DNA from: Thiobacillus sp. 0-1251
GTDB lineage: Bacteria > Pseudomonadota > Gammaproteobacteria > Burkholderiales > Thiobacillaceae
Direction: 5' to 3'
Assembly (NCBI GenBank): GCA_001899305.1
Contig: MKWL01000001.1
Coordinates: 434,001-498,000 of the forward strand
DNA: 64,000 nt
Position 1 is the stretch's first letter, and each line of letters opens with the position of its first letter. The translations under genes and the position numbers were made by a program. Under the pieces are notes generated by a model. The model did not search any database and was not told the origin of the DNA. It saw only the letters and a list, made by a program, of their open reading frames with translations. Shown here one piece after another: positions 12,891-23,079 of this stretch.

Positions 12891-15635
12891 TCAGCCAGGC
12901 TTGAGCGGAAGTACCGATTCGGCCGGCTGAGGTCGGCCGAAGTGATAGCCCTGGGCATAGTCCACGCCAAGTTCCGTCACCCACCGAAGAATGGCCTCGG
13001 TCTCGACGTATTCCGCAATCGCCAGCTTGCCATAGCCGTGTATGGCCTCGACCAGGGCTCTTACGAACAGGCGATCGTCCTCGCTGTGATCCAGCGTGCG
13101 AATGAATGAGCCGTCGATTTTGACGAAATCCACCGGCAGATGTTTCAGGTACTGGAAGGTGGAAAAGCCCACGCCGAAATCGTCCAGCGCCAGCTTGCAG
13201 CCGAGCGTTCGAATGCCGGTGAGCAGGATTTCGGCATGCGTCATCTGGTTCAGGGTCGCTGTTTCGGTGATTTCCAGGATCAGCTGATGCGGCTGGACGC
13301 CTTGCTGCTCCAGCATGGCTTGCAACAGGGCAGGCAACTCGGGGTTGTCGAGGCTGCGGGCGGACAGGTTGACCGCAAGGTGCAGACCGGGCCGGCTTGC
13401 GATCAGAGAGATGGCATGCTGCAGCACCCACTGATCGATCTCCCGGATCAGCCCCGAGGCTTCGGCCGCAGCGATCAGCGGAGCGGGCGGCAGAATCTGC
13501 CCGTCCGGCGCCCGGACCCGCAGCAGCGCCTCATAGTGCACGGCCCGTCCGGCTTGGATCGACATGATGGGCTGGAGGAACAACGCCAGCCGGTTGTCGT
13601 GCAGCGCGTCGGTGATCAATGCAAGCTGCGACGTGCGGTCCAGCAGGCTTTCGCGGGTGCCGTCCCCCGGGTTGTAGAGATGCCAGTTGGAGCGGCCTTT
13701 GGCACGCGCCTGGGATAGTGCCAGATCGGCATGGCCCAGCAGGCTTTCCGTGGTGCAGTCGGGCTGGACTACGGCGATGCCGACGCAGGCGGTGGCGATG
13801 TGCTGGTCGCGGTCGCCCTTGCACAGAAAACGCGCAGTCTGCAGCAACTGGGCGTCCGGCAGGGGTTCGAAATACAGGGCAAACTCGTCGCCGCCCAGCC
13901 GTGCGGCCAGCTTGGGTGCCGGCTGGAGTTCGCGCAGCCGTTCGGCCATGTTCTGGATCACGGCATCGCCGGCGCTGTGGCCGGCCAGGTCGTTGATCGC
14001 CTTGAAATCATCCAGGTCGATCAGCAGGAGGGCGCCGCTCTTCAGTTCGGTCAGGGCGTGGGCCAGCCGCCGCTGGAAGCCCTGGCGGTTGTAGAGTCCG
14101 GTCAGCGTGTCGTAGTCGGACAGATAGCTGGCGCGTGCCTGCGCGCTCTTGAGTTCGGTCAGGTCCAGTCCCACCGAGAGGATCAGGGGTTCGCTGTCGC
14201 CTTTTGGGCCGATCAGCGAATGCACCCAGGTGATGTTGCGCAGGCCGTCGGGAGTGGCGAGCAGCGCCTCGAATCGCAGCGGCGCGGGGTCGTTGAGGAA
14301 ATGAACGAGAAGCCGCGAACGCCAGTCGCGGCTTTCCTGTGGCGCGATCATCTGCTTGAAGTAGTCCTGCCCGATCAGCTGCTGCTCGGTGAGGCCGGTC
14401 AGGGTTTCCACGTAATGGTTGGCCATGCGGATCACGCCCTGGCGATCCTGGGTCAGGATCAGCGCCTGCGCCGTGTCCAGCAGGCCGGAGATGAAGTCGC
14501 GTTCGTGCGACAGGGTGTCGACCAGCTTGGCGAGATCGTTCTGCTGGCTGCGTGCGGCGGTGTCGAGCGATTCAAGCTGGCTGGCGAGCGTGAGCGCCGC
14601 TTTTTCCAGGGTGGAGAGTTCGTCGCCCGGTGCGATGTCGCGGAACTGCAGATGCTGGCGTGCGTCGCGCCAGCGGCCGTCGCCCAGCAATGGCAGGCCG
14701 GTGCTGACCCGGTTCATCCGCCGCATCAGCCAGGCGAGCGAAACCAGCAGCACGCCTTCGGCGAGGATGAAAACGGTCAGCCCCGTGACCAGATTGGTCA
14801 GGAAGGATTGCCTGATGGCGCGCTCGGCATCGGTTACGTCCTTGCGCGCGATGAAATACGGGGTGTCGGGCGTGCTCGCAAGCGGCTTCAGCTTTTGCCA
14901 TACATAGGCCTTGCCTTTGCTGTGGGTCAGCGCCGATTCGATCTGCAGCCGTTGTGGATAAGGAACGAAATCCGCCTGGCCCACCATTGCCCCGATGTCC
15001 GGGGTGGTGGCGGCGATCAGCGCGGTTTTCTGCTGACGGTCGACTGCGACCGCCAGGTCATGCCCGCTGCTTTGGCCAAACGTGCTCAGCAGGTTGGACA
15101 GGTCCATCGAGACTACCACCACGCCGGCGGTGCGGCCCTGGCGTAGCACCGGCGCCATGCCGTAAAACAGGCAGCGTTCGGCACAGTACAGGCCGCTGGC
15201 CGGATGTTCGTTCGAGAGCACCTCACCGAGCCGGGACGCGATCAATACGTCGGGCGCCGGCATGCTGCCGAAACCGGTCAGCAATCGTTGACCGGCATCG
15301 TACAGGCGCAGGCTTTCGAATCCCTGGTTGAGGCTGAGCTGTTCCCAGTAAGGCTGCAGGGCGAAGCCGGCATCCAGATCGGGTGGGCCGCCATGACTGG
15401 CCACCAGAAAATCGGCCAGTGCCGATCCTGCATCCACCAGCTGACGTTCGTTTTGCTGGATCAGGAAGCGTAGCAGCGCCTCGTTGCGGGTTGCGCTATC
15501 GAGGCGTGTCTGCTGGACTTCGCGGCGCAGGTTGGCGTCGTTGATCCAGGTGAGCGCCATCGTACCGATCGCCATGGCCAGCGTGAGCGGCAGCAGCAGC
15601 TTCCATTTCAGGCTGAGAAAGACGGGCGATCGCAT
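12891..15635 (-). CDS. Membrane sensor PAS-GGDEF-EAL protein (c-di-GMP turnover)
   Basis: This is a 914-residue protein. Transmembrane helices at about 10-30 and 285-312 enclose a large periplasmic region of about 250 residues with Cache-like features. Then come a linker, a PAS domain (about 380-500), GGDEF (about 510-650) and EAL (about 665-905). GGDEF is intact (ARLGGDEF) without an RxxD I-site. The EAL side has YEALLRV, NLSARSL, EITET, LDDFGVGFSTF, KIDGSFI and EYVETE, so phosphodiesterase activity is expected. It starts three bases after the stop of the outer-membrane gene and is the last gene of a three-gene operon with a PstS-like binding protein. Confidence 0.92.
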   Translation of the reverse strand: MRSPVFLSLKWKLLLPLTLAMAIGTMALTWINDANLRREVQQTRLDSATRNEALLRFLIQQNERQLVDAGSALADFLVASHGGPPDLDAGFALQPYWEQLSLNQGFESLRLYDAGQRLLTGFGSMPAPDVLIASRLGEVLSNEHPASGLYCAERCLFYGMAPVLRQGRTAGVVVVSMDLSNLLSTFGQSSGHDLAVAVDRQQKTALIAATTPDIGAMVGQADFVPYPQRLQIESALTHSKGKAYVWQKLKPLASTPDTPYFIARKDVTDAERAIRQSFLTNLVTGLTVFILAEGVLLVSLAWLMRRMNRVSTGLPLLGDGRWRDARQHLQFRDIAPGDELSTLEKAALTLASQLESLDTAARSQQNDLAKLVDTLSHERDFISGLLDTAQALILTQDRQGVIRMANHYVETLTGLTEQQLIGQDYFKQMIAPQESRDWRSRLLVHFLNDPAPLRFEALLATPDGLRNITWVHSLIGPKGDSEPLILSVGLDLTELKSAQARASYLSDYDTLTGLYNRQGFQRRLAHALTELKSGALLLIDLDDFKAINDLAGHSAGDAVIQNMAERLRELQPAPKLAARLGGDEFALYFEPLPDAQLLQTARFLCKGDRDQHIATACVGIAVVQPDCTTESLLGHADLALSQARAKGRSNWHLYNPGDGTRESLLDRTSQLALITDALHDNRLALFLQPIMSIQAGRAVHYEALLRVRAPDGQILPPAPLIAAAEASGLIREIDQWVLQHAISLIASRPGLHLAVNLSARSLDNPELPALLQAMLEQQGVQPHQLILEITETATLNQMTHAEILLTGIRTLGCKLALDDFGVGFSTFQYLKHLPVDFVKIDGSFIRTLDHSEDDRLFVRALVEAIHGYGKLAIAEYVETEAILRWVTELGVDYAQGYHFGRPQPAESVLPLKPG

Positions 15636-15638
15636 GGC

Positions 15639-16835
15639 CTAGAACCGATAGGCTGCCTGCAGGAGCCACATGTTCCAGCGTTGTTCGCGGCTGAGAAAGA
15701 CAGGGTTGTCCGGGCCCGGCAGCCAGCCGGTGCCATCGACATGGTGGAACTCTGCACGCAGCATCAGGTTCGGCGTGGTGTCCCAGCGCAGTCCCAGCGT
15801 CGTGTCGCGGGCAAACATGCTGTGGGCCGGCAGACCGGTGGCGGCGGCAAACAGACGACCGTCCTTGTCGTGCTTGTCCCGGTAGAAGACGTCATGGCGC
15901 AGCATCAGTTCCCAGGCTGGCAGGAAACGCCATTCGCCCTGGAGATACCCCGCCTGGATGACCCGGTGGCTGTTGGGCAGGAACGGGCCGAAGCCTGCGG
16001 TATCGAAGCGGGGCTCGCCATACTCGGCCGTCAATGTGACGGTATCGAGGCGTTGCTGGGCCGTGAAGAGGATATTGCGGAACTGCACCTTGCCTGCTGC
16101 CAGCGTGTCGCTGCTGCCGGGCGCATACTCGGCCCTGGCATTGGCATAGGTCAGCATCAACGTGGTATCGGTCGGCAGATCCCAGCGCAGGCGGGCGCCC
16201 AGTGCGCCCTTGCCTTCCAGCTTGCCCGGCCGCGTGTTGCCAAGAAAACTGTAATCGACGGAGGGGCTGTCGAAATTGGGACGCACCCAGCCCAGCAGGA
16301 AATCGAACGCGCCGTATTCCTGCACGCTGGCACCATGCAGGAAGGCTCCGGGCGCGGCGAGTAGCAAGTCGCGGCTGTTGTCGACATAGACCGACTGCGG
16401 CAACAGGATGCCGGAACGCGTGAACGGTACGTCGCGCGTTTCGTTATACAGGCCGTAGGGAAGCTTGACCTTGCCGAACTTGAGTCCGAGCTGGCTGACA
16501 TCGGTCTGGTAAAATTGCCAGTCCGCTTGGGCATAATCCACGCGCAGGCCATCCCGATCGCTTTCGCCCGCACGCCGATACAGGATCTGGCCGGACAGCC
16601 GCACCGCGTCGAGCGCCTGCCAGGTCCCATGGAGGCCGGCTTCGGTGAACTCGGTGCTGACGCCGTTCCGGCTGTCGCCGAAGAAACGGTTGTTGGTGCT
16701 GCCGATCAGCCCCTGGGCGGCGAACCCCTGGATCTGGTAGCGGGGGCCGGCCAGTTCGTCAGCCCGGACGGGCGACACTGCCAGCAGGCTGCCCAACAGC
16801 AGGCTATTCCAGCCTAAGCGTCTTGATGCCGTCAT
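15639..16835 (-). CDS. Outer-membrane beta-barrel (porin-like) protein
   Basis: A 398-residue exported protein: signal peptide to about residue 25 (LLLGSLLAVSPVRA), then alternating amphipathic strands rich in aromatic and charged residues, and a C-terminal Phe (LLQAAYRF), the recognition signal for the Bam complex. FGKVKLPYGLYNETRD resembles trimeric porin-like families. It is not a recognised classical porin and the solute is unknown. The start overlaps the PstS-like gene by 32 bases and the stop is three bases before the GGDEF-EAL gene, suggesting one transcript and a joint function in sensing an extracellular ligand. Confidence 0.8.
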   Translation of the reverse strand: MTASRRLGWNSLLLGSLLAVSPVRADELAGPRYQIQGFAAQGLIGSTNNRFFGDSRNGVSTEFTEAGLHGTWQALDAVRLSGQILYRRAGESDRDGLRVDYAQADWQFYQTDVSQLGLKFGKVKLPYGLYNETRDVPFTRSGILLPQSVYVDNSRDLLLAAPGAFLHGASVQEYGAFDFLLGWVRPNFDSPSVDYSFLGNTRPGKLEGKGALGARLRWDLPTDTTLMLTYANARAEYAPGSSDTLAAGKVQFRNILFTAQQRLDTVTLTAEYGEPRFDTAGFGPFLPNSHRVIQAGYLQGEWRFLPAWELMLRHDVFYRDKHDKDGRLFAAATGLPAHSMFARDTTLGLRWDTTPNLMLRAEFHHVDGTGWLPGPDNPVFLSREQRWNMWLLQAAYRF

Positions 16836-17229
16836 AAACCATGTCCTTGCTTGTATAACCGATTGCGCCCGGTGTGGCTCGAACGCGTGCCCGCATTTCG
16901 TTCTCGTCCTTTACCTGAATCGGCGCACTGGCCATTCCGCTGAAGCTCATCCGGTCCCAGGTCTGGCGCAGACGATAGGGATACAGGCCGAGCTTCTCCT
17001 TGGCGAAGGCCACGTGCGCCGGATGGTCATCCGGCAGGACGAAAACCACGATGGGTTGGTGGTTGGGCCACAACGTCTGGCGCAGAGTGTAAATGTTGCG
17101 CAGGGAGGTGATGCTGATGCTGTGGCCTTCAACGTCGGGATTGACGATGATTCCGGCTGATGCGGTAAGCGGGCTGAGCAGACATGTCAGCAACACCAGC
17201 CGCCAGAAAAAGAAATACGCTTGAGCCAC
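16804..17229 (-). CDS. PstS-like (PBP_like_2) small periplasmic binding protein
   Basis: The 141-residue product has a signal peptide (FFFWRLVLLTCLLSPLTASA) and a mature domain like half of a PstS phosphate-binding fold: DVEGHSISITSLRNIYTL, WPNHQPIVVFVLPDD, FAKEKLGLYPYRLRQTWDRMSFSG and TPGAIGYTSKDM. No ATG is available, and the GTG at 17229 is the first start that gives a sensible signal peptide. The open frame continues far upstream antisense to mutY and is not real there. There are no ABC transporter genes nearby. It is the first gene of an operon with an outer-membrane barrel and a GGDEF-EAL sensor. Confidence 0.82.
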   Translation of the reverse strand: MAQAYFFFWRLVLLTCLLSPLTASAGIIVNPDVEGHSISITSLRNIYTLRQTLWPNHQPIVVFVLPDDHPAHVAFAKEKLGLYPYRLRQTWDRMSFSGMASAPIQVKDENEMRARVRATPGAIGYTSKDMVYDGIKTLRLE

Positions 17230-17296
17230 TGGGCGTCGGAAGTTTGTTTTATCAGGTTGCCGCTTTATAGCATGGCAAATGCAGCACGGGCAGTAC

Positions 17297-18343
17297 TCAG
17301 AGGATTCGTTTGTGGTCGAGTTGTCTGACCAGCGTACGTACGGGGGCGGGGAGCGCTGCATCGAGTGCATCGGCCAGAGGGAGCCAGATCTGGCCGGGTG
17401 GCGTGTCGTGGCGTGGCGCCAACTGGAGCCGAACCGGCTGGATGTGCAGTTTGAAGTGGGTGAAGCTGTGTGTGAACTGCGGGAGAGCCTGCTGGGCCAG
17501 CGCGGTGAAGCCGAAGCGCTCGCGGCAATGGCTGGCGGCGTCGACGTCGGGAGCCAGTTCGGGCAGGCTCCACAAGCCGCCCCAAATACCCTGCGAGGGA
17601 CGCTTTTCAAGCATGAGTTCGCCGCGGTCGAGCAGCAGCAGCATCTGTACCTGCTTTTCCGGCAGTGCTTTTTTGGGGCGTGGTGCTGGCAATTCCTGGA
17701 CGCGGCCTTGCGCATGGGCGACGCAGTCGGCATTGACCGGGCAGACCGCACAATTTGGCTGGCTACGGGTACAGACGAGTGCGCCAAGATCCATCATGCC
17801 CTGGGTGTAGGTCTCGATGGCCGTGTCCGGCAGCAGCGACTCGGCCCGCGTCCACAACGCCGACTCGACTGTCTTGTCGCCGGGCCAGCCAGCGATGCCG
17901 CCATGGCGTGCCAGGACGCGCTTGACGTTGCCATCGAGAATGGCGCAGCGCTGGCTGAATGCCAGCGCTGCAATGGCCGCAGCGGTCGAGCGCCCCACGC
18001 CCGGCAGTTGTGCGATGGCGTCGGGCCGGGCCGGAAATATCCCGCCATGTCGGGTCACGACGGCGCGTGCCGCCGCGTGCAGATTGCGCGCGCGACTGTA
18101 GTAGCCAAGCCCGCTCCACAACGCGAGCACGTCGTCTTCCTGGGCGGCGGCCAGGGCCGGCAGATCGGGGAAACGGGCGACAAAACGCTCGAAATAGGGG
18201 ATGACCGTGGCAACCTGGGTCTGCTGCAGCATGATTTCCGACAGCCAGATACGGTAGGGATCGCGTGTGCCCTGCCATGGCAGGGTATGGCGACCGTGGT
18301 GCAACTGCCAGTGGATGATGCGGGACGCAAATGATTTTTTCAC
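17297..18343 (-). CDS. mutY: A/G-specific adenine glycosylase MutY
   Basis: The 348-residue DNA-repair enzyme removes adenine mispaired with 8-oxoguanine. Seen are PWQGTRDPYRIWLSEIMLQQ with the catalytic Glu, the helix-hairpin-helix LPGVGRSTAAAIAALAF followed by the catalytic Asp in ILDGNVKRVL, and the 4Fe-4S ligands in a C-x6-C-x2-C-x5-C pattern near residues 185-205. A C-terminal NUDIX-like domain recognises 8-oxoG. The GTG at 18343 is preferred; a TTG at 18373 would add ten residues without better support. Confidence 0.95.
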   Translation of the reverse strand: MKKSFASRIIHWQLHHGRHTLPWQGTRDPYRIWLSEIMLQQTQVATVIPYFERFVARFPDLPALAAAQEDDVLALWSGLGYYSRARNLHAAARAVVTRHGGIFPARPDAIAQLPGVGRSTAAAIAALAFSQRCAILDGNVKRVLARHGGIAGWPGDKTVESALWTRAESLLPDTAIETYTQGMMDLGALVCTRSQPNCAVCPVNADCVAHAQGRVQELPAPRPKKALPEKQVQMLLLLDRGELMLEKRPSQGIWGGLWSLPELAPDVDAASHCRERFGFTALAQQALPQFTHSFTHFKLHIQPVRLQLAPRHDTPPGQIWLPLADALDAALPAPVRTLVRQLDHKRIL

Positions 18344-18421: not shown

Positions 18422-20650
18422 TCAGGCGTGACCGAGTTTCTGGCGGAACAGGTTCATCAGCTTGCCGAACGCCGATTCGGTGATCGACTTGCGTTCGACC
18501 AGTACGGCTTCGCCGCGGCGCAGCTTGTCGGCCAGGCGATGCAGGCCGATGGAAAAGCTGTTCATGCCATCCTGATCCGAGAACAGGTAGGTGTTCTTGA
18601 TGCTGCTGACCCAGCCCAGTCGTGCCCAGCGGAACGTGCCGTCATCGTAGTGGAATTCCACCCAGTCGCCCTTGTTCAGGGCAAGGGCGCGCTGGGTGAA
18701 TTCGTCTTCCACTTCAGGCGTGGCCGGCTCGGCTTCGGCTGCCACGATCGGGGGGGCTTCCGGTACGGCAGGCGCGAGCGCTTCGATTTCTTCGGGGGTG
18801 ATGTCGGGCAACGGAACCGGCTGGGCATTGGGCCGTACCGCGTTGGCGTGCAGGATGACCAGGGTGGCGAAGAAACGATCGGAGAGTTTCTGCGGCAGGT
18901 CGATTTCTGCCGTACCTTCACGCAGGCGCTTCAGCAGCCCGGGCAGAATGCGCACCAGCATCAGGCGTGCATCCATATCCGCCTTGGGTTGCACGCTCCA
19001 GACCAGTTCGCGCATGGTTTCGACATGGCTGTTGAAATGCGCGCCCTGCTCACCTTCGCTGATGTAATCCTGGGTAAGCAACTGCGCCCAGTCGCGGCGC
19101 AGGAATTCGCGCACCGCATCGCCTGCCTGTTGGTCCTTTAGCGCGCGATTGATGAAATCATGCACGATGACCGGCGCGAGTTCGGCACGTTCGCTTTGCT
19201 TGATCTGGGCGATATCCGGTTGCAGGCTGACATCCACCGTCTCCTCGAGCGTTTCTTCCAGAGTGGAGGCCATGGCCTCCAGCTCGATGGCAGCGGATTC
19301 GAATACGGCAATGTCCTGCTCGAAACTGTCCAGCACCCGGCTGACCACTTGCGAGATGGCATCGAGACGGGCATTGCCCGTCTCGTTGTCGGGCAGGTGC
19401 ACGGAAAGCGTGGCGATCGCATCCAGCATGCGGCGCACCGGATGATTCGACTGCGAGAAGAAATTGCGGTCCAGCATCGCCGCCTTCAGCACCGGAATCT
19501 GCAGGCGCGCAATTTGGGCCTTGAGGCGATCGGGGATGGAGGCTTCGTCGAACACCACGTCGAACAGCATGGCCACGGCGTCCACCAGCACCGCATCGAG
19601 CGGGCTGGCTGCCTGCATGACCGGGCTTTGCTGCAAGCTGCGCAGCACGTTGCTGACATTGGTGGCTTCCAGCAGGGGCAGTTCGAAGCGTCCGCCGCCG
19701 GGCAGCATGAGGGCGCCGGATTGAAGTTGGCTGAGCGAATCAAGCAGGCTGAAGCCGGCAAGCCCGGCCGCCGCACTGCCGCCGCCCGCACCGGTACCGG
19801 CGGCATATCCGCCTGTGGCCGGCGCGCCGCCATGCGCGAGCTGCTCGAACAGCCTGAACATGTCGCCGCCGGTTTGTCCCTGCATGGCAGGGCCCGTACC
19901 GGCAGAGGGCGTGCCGTGTTGGGCGGGGCCAGAGCTTTGTGCCCGGTTCTTCGCGCCGACTTTCAGGTCAGGCAGGATGCCGCGGTCGATCAGATGGCGG
20001 TTGATGGCCTGGTAGATGTGGGCGAGTTCGGTGGTGAGCACCAGATCGAACTGGTTCAGGAGAACGATTCGCACATCCTGTTCCAGCTGCATGCGGGTGA
20101 TGCCGTCGAGCATCGCTTCGCACAGCGCGCGCGGGCCCAGCGGGTTGTCGTTCTCGGCGAGATCGCTGCGGCCCAGCAGATGGGCAATACGAGCATCCAG
20201 GGCAACCAGTTCCTCGGCGCAGTTGAAGCGCAGTCGCGAGGTGGCTTTATCGACCGCCAGCGTGATTTCGAAATCCTGGTCGTCCACCAGGGACAGTTCG
20301 AGCAATTCGCTGCCAGTCGTTTTCTCGCGATTGAGCGCAAAATCGCTGAAGTTCTGGCAGTAGGCGTCCTTGCAGGCACTCAGTAATTCGTTGGCCTGCT
20401 TGTTGAGGATACCCTGGGCGCCGTAATACGTATTGCGCGTGTCCAGCAAAGGCGAACGGTCGGCCATTGCCAGCAGGGTGTTTTCCATGGCCTCGGTCTG
20501 CCGGGTCAGCACACGGGTCGCACCTTCGATCAGCAGGTCGCGGCAGCCGTGCAGGACGGACAAAGTCTCGGCGGAGACCTGCGCACGGCGCGCTCGCTCG
20601 AATTGATTGAGGTTAACTACGACTGAATTGTCTGGCATCTCGCGCTCCAT
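18422..20650 (-). CDS. DUF1631 family protein, downstream of a c-di-GMP riboswitch
   Basis: This 742-residue protein belongs to the DUF1631 family (often misnamed thymidine phosphorylase). The N-terminal helical region is followed by a Gly/Ala-rich linker at about 235-290, a long helical middle, and a C-terminal beta domain starting at LNKGDWVEFHYDD and including RLGWVSSIKNTYLFSDQDG. That last domain resembles a PilZ-like barrel but lacks a clear RxxxR motif. The ATG at 20650 is chosen because GAGGTGATC lies eight bases upstream; 20638 also has a GGAG. A GEMM-I riboswitch sits in the leader, so expression should respond to cyclic di-GMP. The biochemical role is unknown. Confidence 0.88.
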   Translation of the reverse strand: MEREMPDNSVVVNLNQFERARRAQVSAETLSVLHGCRDLLIEGATRVLTRQTEAMENTLLAMADRSPLLDTRNTYYGAQGILNKQANELLSACKDAYCQNFSDFALNREKTTGSELLELSLVDDQDFEITLAVDKATSRLRFNCAEELVALDARIAHLLGRSDLAENDNPLGPRALCEAMLDGITRMQLEQDVRIVLLNQFDLVLTTELAHIYQAINRHLIDRGILPDLKVGAKNRAQSSGPAQHGTPSAGTGPAMQGQTGGDMFRLFEQLAHGGAPATGGYAAGTGAGGGSAAAGLAGFSLLDSLSQLQSGALMLPGGGRFELPLLEATNVSNVLRSLQQSPVMQAASPLDAVLVDAVAMLFDVVFDEASIPDRLKAQIARLQIPVLKAAMLDRNFFSQSNHPVRRMLDAIATLSVHLPDNETGNARLDAISQVVSRVLDSFEQDIAVFESAAIELEAMASTLEETLEETVDVSLQPDIAQIKQSERAELAPVIVHDFINRALKDQQAGDAVREFLRRDWAQLLTQDYISEGEQGAHFNSHVETMRELVWSVQPKADMDARLMLVRILPGLLKRLREGTAEIDLPQKLSDRFFATLVILHANAVRPNAQPVPLPDITPEEIEALAPAVPEAPPIVAAEAEPATPEVEDEFTQRALALNKGDWVEFHYDDGTFRWARLGWVSSIKNTYLFSDQDGMNSFSIGLHRLADKLRRGEAVLVERKSITESAFGKLMNLFRQKLGHA

Positions 20651-20711
20651 GGGGATCACCTCGCGGTATCGGCGGCTGGCCGGCCAACGGAGGGTGTACG
20701 CGTGACAGGAG

Positions 20712-20815
20712 TACTGCCGGCGGCCCCGCTATCTCGTCAGCCGGATGTGGCGGGCGAGACCGGTAACTTTGCGTCCCTGCCTCGCGGCGGGTTTGCCCTG
20801 TTCGGTGGTCGGCGA
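20712..20815 (-). ncRNA. Cyclic-di-GMP-I (GEMM-I) riboswitch
   Basis: Read on the minus strand, the leader contains ACAGGGCAAACC (around 20801-20790), a P2 stem capped by a GCGA GNRA tetraloop (around 20782-20788), GGGACGCAAAG (20777-20767), a P3 stem with TCTCG pairing to CGAGA, and ATAGCGGGG (20732-20724). These are the conserved core elements of the GEMM-I aptamer in the right order and spacing, nearly identical in the core to the Vibrio cholerae Vc2 element. Outer limits (P1) are approximate. About 60 bases separate it from the DUF1631 start. No U-tract terminator is seen, so control may act on translation or through Rho; the strong GAGGTGATC ribosome site is a possible target. Confidence 0.93.
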
Positions 20816-20899: not shown

Positions 20900-22954
20900 T
20901 TAAGCGCGACCGTTTACCAAGCTGTCCTTAAGGCGCAGCATGGCATTTCGGGTTAGTGACTGCTCCGGAATCCGAGCCCGGCCGGTCCGGATTTCCACCG
21001 CGAGTCCCTCGCAATCCAGTGAAAAGCGCTGCTCGCCTTCGCTGTCACAAAACAGCAGGTAGCCACGTACGCCGACCCAGGCCACGCGGGCAGTCGCAAG
21101 ACCCTCGTAAGGCGGGTCGAAATCCACCCAGTCGCCCTCGATCAATTGTTGCGCCTGCAGCAGGGCGGGATCGTTTTCCTGTGGGGCCGGCACCTGGTCG
21201 GCCAACGATTCGATTTGCGCTTGCGAGATGCGCTTCGGGGTAAATGTGCTCACCAGCGCTTCGCGATGTCCCAGGGCAGGGCGGATCCAGCATTCCTGAG
21301 TGGCCGTGATGGCGCTGAAGAAATCTTTCAATTGCGCCGGTTCGGCCCCCTGGGCCAGGAGGCCCTGCCGCAATGCGGCATTGATGGCGGGGATCGATTG
21401 CAGTCGGGTTTCGCGCGTGGTATCGCTGTCGGGCGTCTGCAGGCTGAGGAAAAGATTCTGCAGGGTCTGGCAGGCCGCCCGCCAGTCGGGGCCTTCGCCG
21501 GATTCGGCCATGTACAGGGAGGCCATATGCGGAACCCAGGCGGTTTCCAGCCGCCGCAGGACGGATTCCGGGGCGGGATAGCGTTCGGTCAGGTCATTCA
21601 GGTTTTCCAGCGCCAGCAGCGTGCCCAGTTCCTGCCGCTCGATCTGCTCCAGATGCGCGACTTCAGCATTCAGTGCGACTTCCGTGCGCGCATCCTCGCC
21701 CGCCAGCCAGACGGCGAGTGCGCTGTGTGCCCGGGCAAAAGCCTCGTTCGGGTGATCGGCGTCGTCGAGAACGGTGGCGCAGGCGGTATGGATTTGCTCG
21801 AGCGCGCTGTGGTGCGTCGCGTCGCCTTCGGGAAAGCGTCGGGAGAACTGGCCCATCAGGTCGATCAGTTGGCGTGCCGGGTGCTGGTCGTCGCTGAAAA
21901 ACTCGGGCGAAATGAGCGCCACCCTGAGGGCCGGGATCTGCAGGTGCGCGATCTCGACCTTGTAGTTCGGCGAGACGGCGGGATCGTCGAGGATGAATTC
22001 GAACAGGCCCGCCAAGGCATCCAGTATGGCGAGATCGAATGCACCGGTGCCGGCTTGGCGTGCATCCTGCTGCAGTTGTCGCAGGACCAAGGACGGTGTT
22101 TCGCCGCCGGCGCTTGTGGGTCCGGGGGGGAAGGCATGCCAGTCGGCCAGGCTGTCGACCAGGCTGCGCGGCGGGGCACCCTGTAGCAGCCCGATTGAAG
22201 ACCCGCCGCTTGCCGGGCCTGTTCCTCCGGCGGCGGAGGCGGACTGGATATGCGCCAGCACAGTGTGTCCTACGTCAGGCTCGCTTCGTCGGGACGGGGA
22301 TGGGCGGGGGGCATCCGGCACCGGAAGGTCGGAAAGATCGACCATGCTGAGAAATTGATTGAGCGCCGTGTAAGTGTGTTTCAGCGTATCGAGCAGCGGC
22401 GCGCGTACGCATTCGAGCAAAAAGGTACCGCATGCCGAACTCATGCCTTGCGAATCAAGTGCGCGTGAGAGGGCGCGAACGACCGGAAGCGGGCCGTAGG
22501 CATCGGGATGGTTGGTGTTTTTTTCCTGCTTGGCCCGTTGCACCGCCTGGATGCGGCGGAACAGCGGCAGCATGTCGGCGCGCAGCGTTTCGGTCATGTC
22601 GGCAGCAAGCTTCTCTTCGGCCAGTTGACGCTTGAGCGTGTCGTCGTCCACCAGCTGCAGTTCGGGCGCAGGATCGCCGTGGTGACGGGGAAATGTCTCG
22701 GGCCGGGCGAGGTGGCGGCGAAACTGGTCGGCAAACGCGGCGGACAAGGCTTCCGGACTGGTGTTGAGCAGGTCGAGACAGGTTTGTCCAGTGGTGACGT
22801 GCGGGGTGTCCATCCGGTCGGCCAGCACCCGGAAGATGGTGTCCTGGATCGCGGTGCGACTGCGCTGGAAGAAATTGTCCAACGCCTGCGTCATGCGCGC
22901 ATCGACCTCGCGCAGCAAGGCGTCGGGGGAGGACGGGGCGGGCTTGGTATTCAT
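20900..22954 (-). CDS. DUF1631 family protein (second, tandem copy)
   Basis: The 684-residue product has the DUF1631 layout: N-terminal helical region with ALDNFFQRSRTAIQDTIFRVL, a low-complexity linker near 220-260, a helical middle with LDALAGLFEFILDDP and IAHLQIPALRVALI (similar to IARLQIPVLKAAML in the neighbour), and a C-terminal beta domain IEGDWVDFDPP...TARVAWVGVRGYLLFCDSEG. The ATG at 22954 is chosen because a longer frame would run through the tRNA-Gly gene. It is divergent enough from the downstream copy to be an old duplication. No riboswitch is seen ahead of it. The role is unknown. Confidence 0.87.
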   Translation of the reverse strand: MNTKPAPSSPDALLREVDARMTQALDNFFQRSRTAIQDTIFRVLADRMDTPHVTTGQTCLDLLNTSPEALSAAFADQFRRHLARPETFPRHHGDPAPELQLVDDDTLKRQLAEEKLAADMTETLRADMLPLFRRIQAVQRAKQEKNTNHPDAYGPLPVVRALSRALDSQGMSSACGTFLLECVRAPLLDTLKHTYTALNQFLSMVDLSDLPVPDAPRPSPSRRSEPDVGHTVLAHIQSASAAGGTGPASGGSSIGLLQGAPPRSLVDSLADWHAFPPGPTSAGGETPSLVLRQLQQDARQAGTGAFDLAILDALAGLFEFILDDPAVSPNYKVEIAHLQIPALRVALISPEFFSDDQHPARQLIDLMGQFSRRFPEGDATHHSALEQIHTACATVLDDADHPNEAFARAHSALAVWLAGEDARTEVALNAEVAHLEQIERQELGTLLALENLNDLTERYPAPESVLRRLETAWVPHMASLYMAESGEGPDWRAACQTLQNLFLSLQTPDSDTTRETRLQSIPAINAALRQGLLAQGAEPAQLKDFFSAITATQECWIRPALGHREALVSTFTPKRISQAQIESLADQVPAPQENDPALLQAQQLIEGDWVDFDPPYEGLATARVAWVGVRGYLLFCDSEGEQRFSLDCEGLAVEIRTGRARIPEQSLTRNAMLRLKDSLVNGRA

Positions 22955-23005
22955 GGCCTTAACACTATCAGGAGTGACCCCAATCAATCGGCGGCAAGCC
23001 ATATC

Positions 23006-23079
23006 TGGAGCGGGCGAAGGGAATCGAACCCTCCTCATGAGCTTGGGAAGCTCAGGTAATGCCACTATACGACGCCCGC
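23006..23079 (-). tRNA. tRNA-Gly (anticodon CCC)
   Basis: A 74-base gene read on the minus strand with encoded CCA. The acceptor stem GCGGGCG pairs with CGCCCGC, the anticodon stem TGAGC/GCTCA encloses the loop TTCCCAA (anticodon CCC), and the T arm has GGTTCGATTCC. The 5' end is at 23079. Confidence 0.96.

Follow-up and report, generated by a model that had tools for sequence, protein, structure and literature searches.

The window, the whole stretch of 64,000 nucleotides that was analysed, carries on its minus strand a gene for a 742-residue DUF1631 protein, with a cyclic-di-GMP-I (GEMM-I) aptamer in the leader ahead of it (Table 1). The protein matched the DUF1631 profile at 583.4 bits, compared to a curated cut-off of 33.7, over residues 29-735 of a 745-aa open reading frame (ORF), which is nearly the whole model. 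ATG 20638 is an alternative start for this gene, as the first ATG is absent in 2 of 23 aligned close relatives (L097 and L102). The closest named relatives of the protein belong to Thiobacillus: over the best segment it is 99% identical to that of a MAG filed as T. denitrificans UBA2410, and it is 96% identical to that of T. thioparus DSM 505. Of 72,556 plasmid records, 2 matched it, both at less than 60% identity. The next gene downstream is MutY-like and, by Pfam, not a c-di-GMP gene. Upstream, in tandem, lies a divergent DUF1631 paralogue with its stop at 20900, which the initial annotation had not mentioned; this paralogue (window 20900-23079, minus strand) starts shortly after a tRNA-Gly(CCC) gene. 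The genome contains four DUF1631 matches.

Table 1. Features of the riboswitch-linked DUF1631 locus, in positions of the window.
Feature	Position	Strand	Basis
c-di-GMP-I (GEMM-I, RF01051) aptamer	20716..20807	-	cmscan of the whole window
Ligand-contact positions G20 (20797), A47 (20770) and C92 (20720)	20720..20797	-	read from the sequence, in what we take to be Vc2 numbering
Presumed expression platform, between the aptamer and the start codon	20651..20715	-	position
Riboswitch-linked DUF1631 gene, 742 aa	18422..20650	-	PF07793 profile match
C-terminal Tudor/SH3-like beta-barrel of the DUF1631 protein	18491..18682	-	model residues 655-718
Divergent upstream DUF1631 paralogue (likely ATG 22954; longest ORF from 23065)	20900..22954	-	PF07793, 264.3 bits

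Two Rfam families, RF01051 and a tRNA, exceeded their thresholds in a cmscan of the whole window. The initial annotation had placed a GEMM-I core on the minus strand ahead of the 742-residue DUF1631 protein, and its coordinates and motif list were right: the RF01051 scan that it had proposed gave 49.9 bits (gathering score 35, E 8.9e-7), with a match that spans model positions 1-87 of 87 and is not truncated. The aptamer is flanked by the two DUF1631 genes, beginning 92 nt past the stop of the upstream one and ending 65 nt before ATG 20650. Vc1 and Vc2 of Vibrio cholerae are the archetypes of the c-di-GMP-I class. The window aptamer shares with this class a full-length match, P2 with a GNRA loop, P3, the residues G20, A47 and C92, and a location in a 5' leader, but differs in that its target is a DUF1631 gene and its platform lacks a general terminator. 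Its P1 is only a short GCCG/CGGC stem, and two non-standard pairs were flagged in comparison with the Rfam model. One other RF01051 site was found in the same genome, on contig C20 (48410-48501, 63.5 bits). GEMM-I riboswitches are well known and the window aptamer is an ordinary member of the class; its significance rests on its partner gene.

We surveyed 300 genomes of the same order, with RF01051 in 115 and DUF1631 in 126, and matched pairs among 151 aptamer and 151 DUF1631 places, made up of the matches listed plus one own place of each kind. Among the matches listed, an aptamer lay within 3 kb upstream and on the same strand at 42 of the 151 DUF1631 places, and DUF1631 lay within 3 kb downstream of 42 of the 151 aptamers, more than a quarter. 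At 38 DUF1631 places the distance was 135-391 nt, and these close pairs, likewise among the matches listed, span eleven family codes. Three of the four pairs outside this range (L068-L070) are partial matches whose genes begin a short way past the aptamer. The fourth (L073) has a shortened DUF1631 ORF in between: two consecutive DUF1631 ORFs follow the single aptamer at L073:1348-5260, and the first of them (451 aa) matches only model positions 319-731. A linked GEMM-I was present at 33 of 45 DUF1631 places scoring at least 550 bits, compared to a listed aptamer upstream at none of 20 places scoring less than 300 bits (both among the matches listed), which indicates an association of the riboswitch with the strong-scoring, free-standing DUF1631 group. 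Twelve strong places had no listed aptamer. One of these (L077) has an aptamer in its sequence and another (L079) starts at a contig edge; our own covariance model gave no aptamer match at eight (L050, L052, L053, L054, L058, L065, L078, and L080), with the remaining two, G021 and G068, outside that check.

A named set of 80 loci was retained out of 562 confirmed relatives, and an aptamer lay on the gene's strand in 53 of them. The survey of other genomes for GEMM-I upstream of DUF1631 that had been suggested at the outset thus found the pair both in the order sample (38 of 151 listed places) and in the named set (53 of 80), although the two surveys overlap in part, at least six named loci having the same sequence as unnamed ones. 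In 51 of the 53 aptamer-bearing loci the leader could be parsed to a start codon downstream of the aptamer (L104 and L154 were left out). Fourteen named loci have another long DUF1631-like ORF on the gene's strand, and all of them carry the aptamer. The 27 named loci without an aptamer include L095 and two that have no upstream sequence (L113 and L135), as well as loci filed as Thiocystis, Thiocapsa, Marichromatium, Chromatium, and Thiohalobacter. Together with the eight strong relatives above, these 27 loci indicate that the switch is not essential to a DUF1631 gene.

When presence of the riboswitch was mapped onto a protein tree of 83 rows, it changed 8 times, compared to 25.3 times in shuffles, with 0 of 500 shuffles as low; this was a quick tree with long-branch warnings, for the upstream paralogue above all, and was made without L113, L104, and L105. 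We also inspected by eye a class sample of 274 genomes, in which DUF1631 occurred in 94, and among the matches listed for the 91 of these outside the order there was no aptamer directly upstream of DUF1631. In one class-sample genome (G511) an aptamer lies approximately 306 nt downstream of DUF1631, and another (G465) has 15 GEMM-I matches. At L095 (3830-4010), a Thiobacillus-like locus with a 79% identical protein, the ends of the leader are kept and the aptamer core is lost; judged by eye, this is a natural loss of the riboswitch.

The domain architecture of other DUF1631 proteins provided a second line of evidence. Two DUF1631 proteins of the same genome, of 1353 and 1253 aa, carry GGDEF and EAL domains after DUF1631, and their N-termini score as PilZ at 30.2 bits (over the cut-off of 22.5) and 19.4 bits (under it). 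Among the lower-scoring DUF1631 matches of the order and class samples, eight more long frames were picked, of which seven were scanned and L168 was left out. The order DUF1631-GGDEF-EAL was found in all seven; PilZ exceeded the cut-off in four, fell just short of it in two, and was absent in one, so that the fusions with PilZ over the cut-off are those of L067, L167, L171, L172, and L173. A third line of evidence came from gene neighbours. An EAL-HDOD-like gene directly follows free-standing DUF1631 in at least 11 of 137 loci, whose flanks differ in length, and at L126 this neighbour is split into pieces. Pfam scans of three of these neighbours placed HDOD over the cut-off in every case and EAL in a single one; in L037 and L121 the EAL motifs have a degenerate look by eye. 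The window gene differs from both groups, as no EAL-HDOD gene adjoins it and its protein lacks the GGDEF, EAL, and often PilZ domains that some relatives carry in the same chain.

These observations bear on whether DUF1631 belongs to the c-di-GMP signalling machinery at all. GEMM-I commonly sits ahead of output genes, and a real aptamer in the window could therefore control a protein, for example a surface or division protein, that is a mere output of c-di-GMP. In keeping with this, Pfam gave the free-standing window protein no catalytic domain and, at E up to 1, no PilZ domain, three long riboswitch-linked proteins (L068, L071, and L072) contain DUF1631 without any c-di-GMP domain, and fold searches of the DUF1631 protein returned no match naming a function. 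The PilZ fusions had prompted a look for a PilZ fold in the C-terminal barrel, for which the matches listed were TraI, Tudor, and SH3-like folds, with no PilZ among them; the central helical part, modelled at pLDDT 90.9, had no informative match; and a profile search of solved-structure sequences with DUF1631 found none at E up to 1. However, a mere output protein would not be expected to form part of GGDEF-EAL proteins, as DUF1631 does in this genome and in others, or to have EAL-HDOD-like genes next to some of its free-standing copies, and we consider this explanation unlikely. A network role for DUF1631 is the reading that we prefer. The initial annotation had called the riboswitch direct evidence that DUF1631 belongs to the c-di-GMP regulon and a first functional handle on the family. 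The riboswitch does stand ahead of the gene and does provide a link, but "direct" is too strong, as we infer regulon membership from it. Nor is it the sole handle, since the GGDEF-EAL fusions, several with PilZ and two in this genome, are independent of it and the EAL-HDOD-like neighbour is a third link in some lineages. In the literature searched, which took in few subscription papers, we found no functional study of DUF1631, and no title or abstract start pointed to the GEMM-I/DUF1631 pairing. In the excerpts available, mentions of DUF1631 were table entries, one of them a Jeongeupia transcript with a log2 fold change of 3.04 in the table of a chitin transcriptome.

To assess selection on the RNA, we aligned 37 DUF1631-linked aptamers and derived a structure with RNAalifold. 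In this set 97.8% of 766 cells were paired, compared to 33-45% in slid controls, a comparison that favours the structure because it was derived from the same alignment. In P2 and P3, two-sided changes were seen at 13 of 21 pairs, none of 500 shuffles scored as high, and the number of cells with such changes was 60, compared to 12.3 in shuffles. The arms of P1 scored a mean of 10.93 across 88 leaders, compared to 9.75 (sd 0.23) for mismatched arms, with 0 of 200 shuffles as high, and P1 varies between lineages. Taken with the E-value of the window match and the recurrence of the aptamer/DUF1631 pair, the covariation excludes a chance origin of the match.

A further alternative is that the window copy itself is a decaying riboswitch that no longer switches. 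Its 49.9 bits are below the scores of all order-sample aptamers among the matches listed (55.6-88.2 bits), it has the two non-standard pairs noted above, and L095, despite its 79% identical protein, gives no aptamer match, only a remnant recognised by eye. We nevertheless regard decay as quite improbable, given that the core residues of the window aptamer are intact, that the aptamer region is kept in aligned close relatives, and that, by eye, P3 shows a compensatory change between the window and L077.

The ligand-contact positions, placed with what we presume to be Vc2 numbering, are nearly invariant in the linked aptamers: A47 and C92 are present in all 37, G20 is present in 36, and none has A at position 20. 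RF01051 does not tell c-di-GMP aptamers from those of the cGAMP class (GEMM-Ib), and the latter have A20. A GEMM-Ib type aptamer sensing 3',3'-cGAMP would accord with the Rfam match, and one linked aptamer (L059) lacks G20 and has C in its place, but with G20 in the window and in 36 of 37 linked aptamers, and A20 in none, we judge this alternative highly improbable. By these residues, the ligand of the linked aptamers is probably c-di-GMP rather than cGAMP. L059 (1260-1369) is the sole leader among the 37 with C replacing G20, and its ligand specificity has perhaps been changed or lost. An apparent loss of the contact C92 in L059 and L060 was rejected, as the column in question is a P3 pair with a compensatory change from G-C to A-U in two sequences, and C92 is present in all 37.

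In the window leader, a conserved GAGGTGA precedes ATG 20650 and no terminator-like site was listed. Terminator-like stems occurred in 8 of 89 leaders, compared to 4.1-4.2 expected from simple shuffles. A terminator was thus rejected as the general mechanism, and the rarity of such stems makes translation initiation or Rho a likelier point of control. We compared access to the Shine-Dalgarno sequence with and without the 3' strand of P1 in 82 of 89 leaders, having dropped seven (five with a weak Shine-Dalgarno or N, and two with an overlap). The mean change was -0.013, and changes greater than 0.1 went up in three leaders and down in eight, at most a faint lean to OFF. Enforcing the aptamer in the folding of 24 Thiobacillus-like leaders gave no consistent direction of Shine-Dalgarno access. 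These predicted folds give no verdict on ON or OFF. A candidate pairing of CACC in the leader with GGTG in the start region, suggested by RNAalifold on the same 24 leaders, was rejected because only 2 of 26 pairs had two-sided changes. The unconstrained fold of the GC-rich window leader breaks the aptamer, and forming the aptamer costs 7.7 kcal/mol, which we count against the interpretation given next, along with the inconsistent Shine-Dalgarno results, the DUF1631 loci lacking an aptamer match, and the MutY-like downstream neighbour.

Collectively, the Rfam match, the ligand-site residues, the covariation, and the recurrence within the order support riboswitch control of DUF1631, and we consider it highly likely that the leader in the window is a genuine c-di-GMP-I riboswitch through which c-di-GMP sets the dose of a protein of its own signalling network. 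In this scheme, c-di-GMP would bind the aptamer, as its conserved contact residues suggest, and stabilise P1, P2, and P3. The stabilised aptamer would then alter access to the start region of DUF1631, most likely at translation initiation or via Rho, and judged from sequence comparison the riboswitch probably controls this gene. The DUF1631 protein would act as a module of the c-di-GMP network, a role that we infer from the other proteins of the same genome in which the domain precedes GGDEF-EAL, often after PilZ; the EAL-HDOD-like gene directly after free-standing DUF1631 in some lineages fits such a module. The dose of one c-di-GMP signalling protein would thus be set by c-di-GMP itself, and the sequence evidence makes it very probable that DUF1631 works within the c-di-GMP network and is subject to feedback from c-di-GMP. 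The riboswitch, the domain fusions, and the neighbours are three separate kinds of evidence that converge on one uncharacterised family, which is where the value of the finding lies, and their convergence on the c-di-GMP network makes the function of DUF1631 directly testable. A broader proposal, to which we give somewhat less than even credence, is that c-di-GMP signalling in proteobacteria has an unrecognised core component in DUF1631. The family would be a helical scaffold, its C-terminal barrel Tudor-like, that serves as adaptor or receptor: in cis within PilZ-DUF1631-GGDEF-EAL enzymes, and in trans where the protein stands free, its dose then set by a c-di-GMP riboswitch fixed early in the betaproteobacterial lineage.

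Several further observations concern other aptamers and genes. By eye, the second aptamer of this genome (L067:2911-3283, on contig C20 from 48410) stands ahead of a 72-aa ORF that has an AGGAGG site and a hydrophobic stretch, and a stem-loop with a T-run comes after this ORF; the product is possibly a small exported protein under c-di-GMP. Two other aptamers of the order (L036 and L017) precede short ORFs that, by eye, have prepilin-like starts. In the window itself, a dCache-PAS-GGDEF-EAL gene (12891-15635) follows a porin-like and a PBP-like ORF, the Pfam matches in this porin-like/PBP-like stretch being weak and under the cut-off. The whole segment (12891-17787, minus strand) is a possible envelope c-di-GMP sensor cassette, for which a likeness to vpvABC is a lead only.
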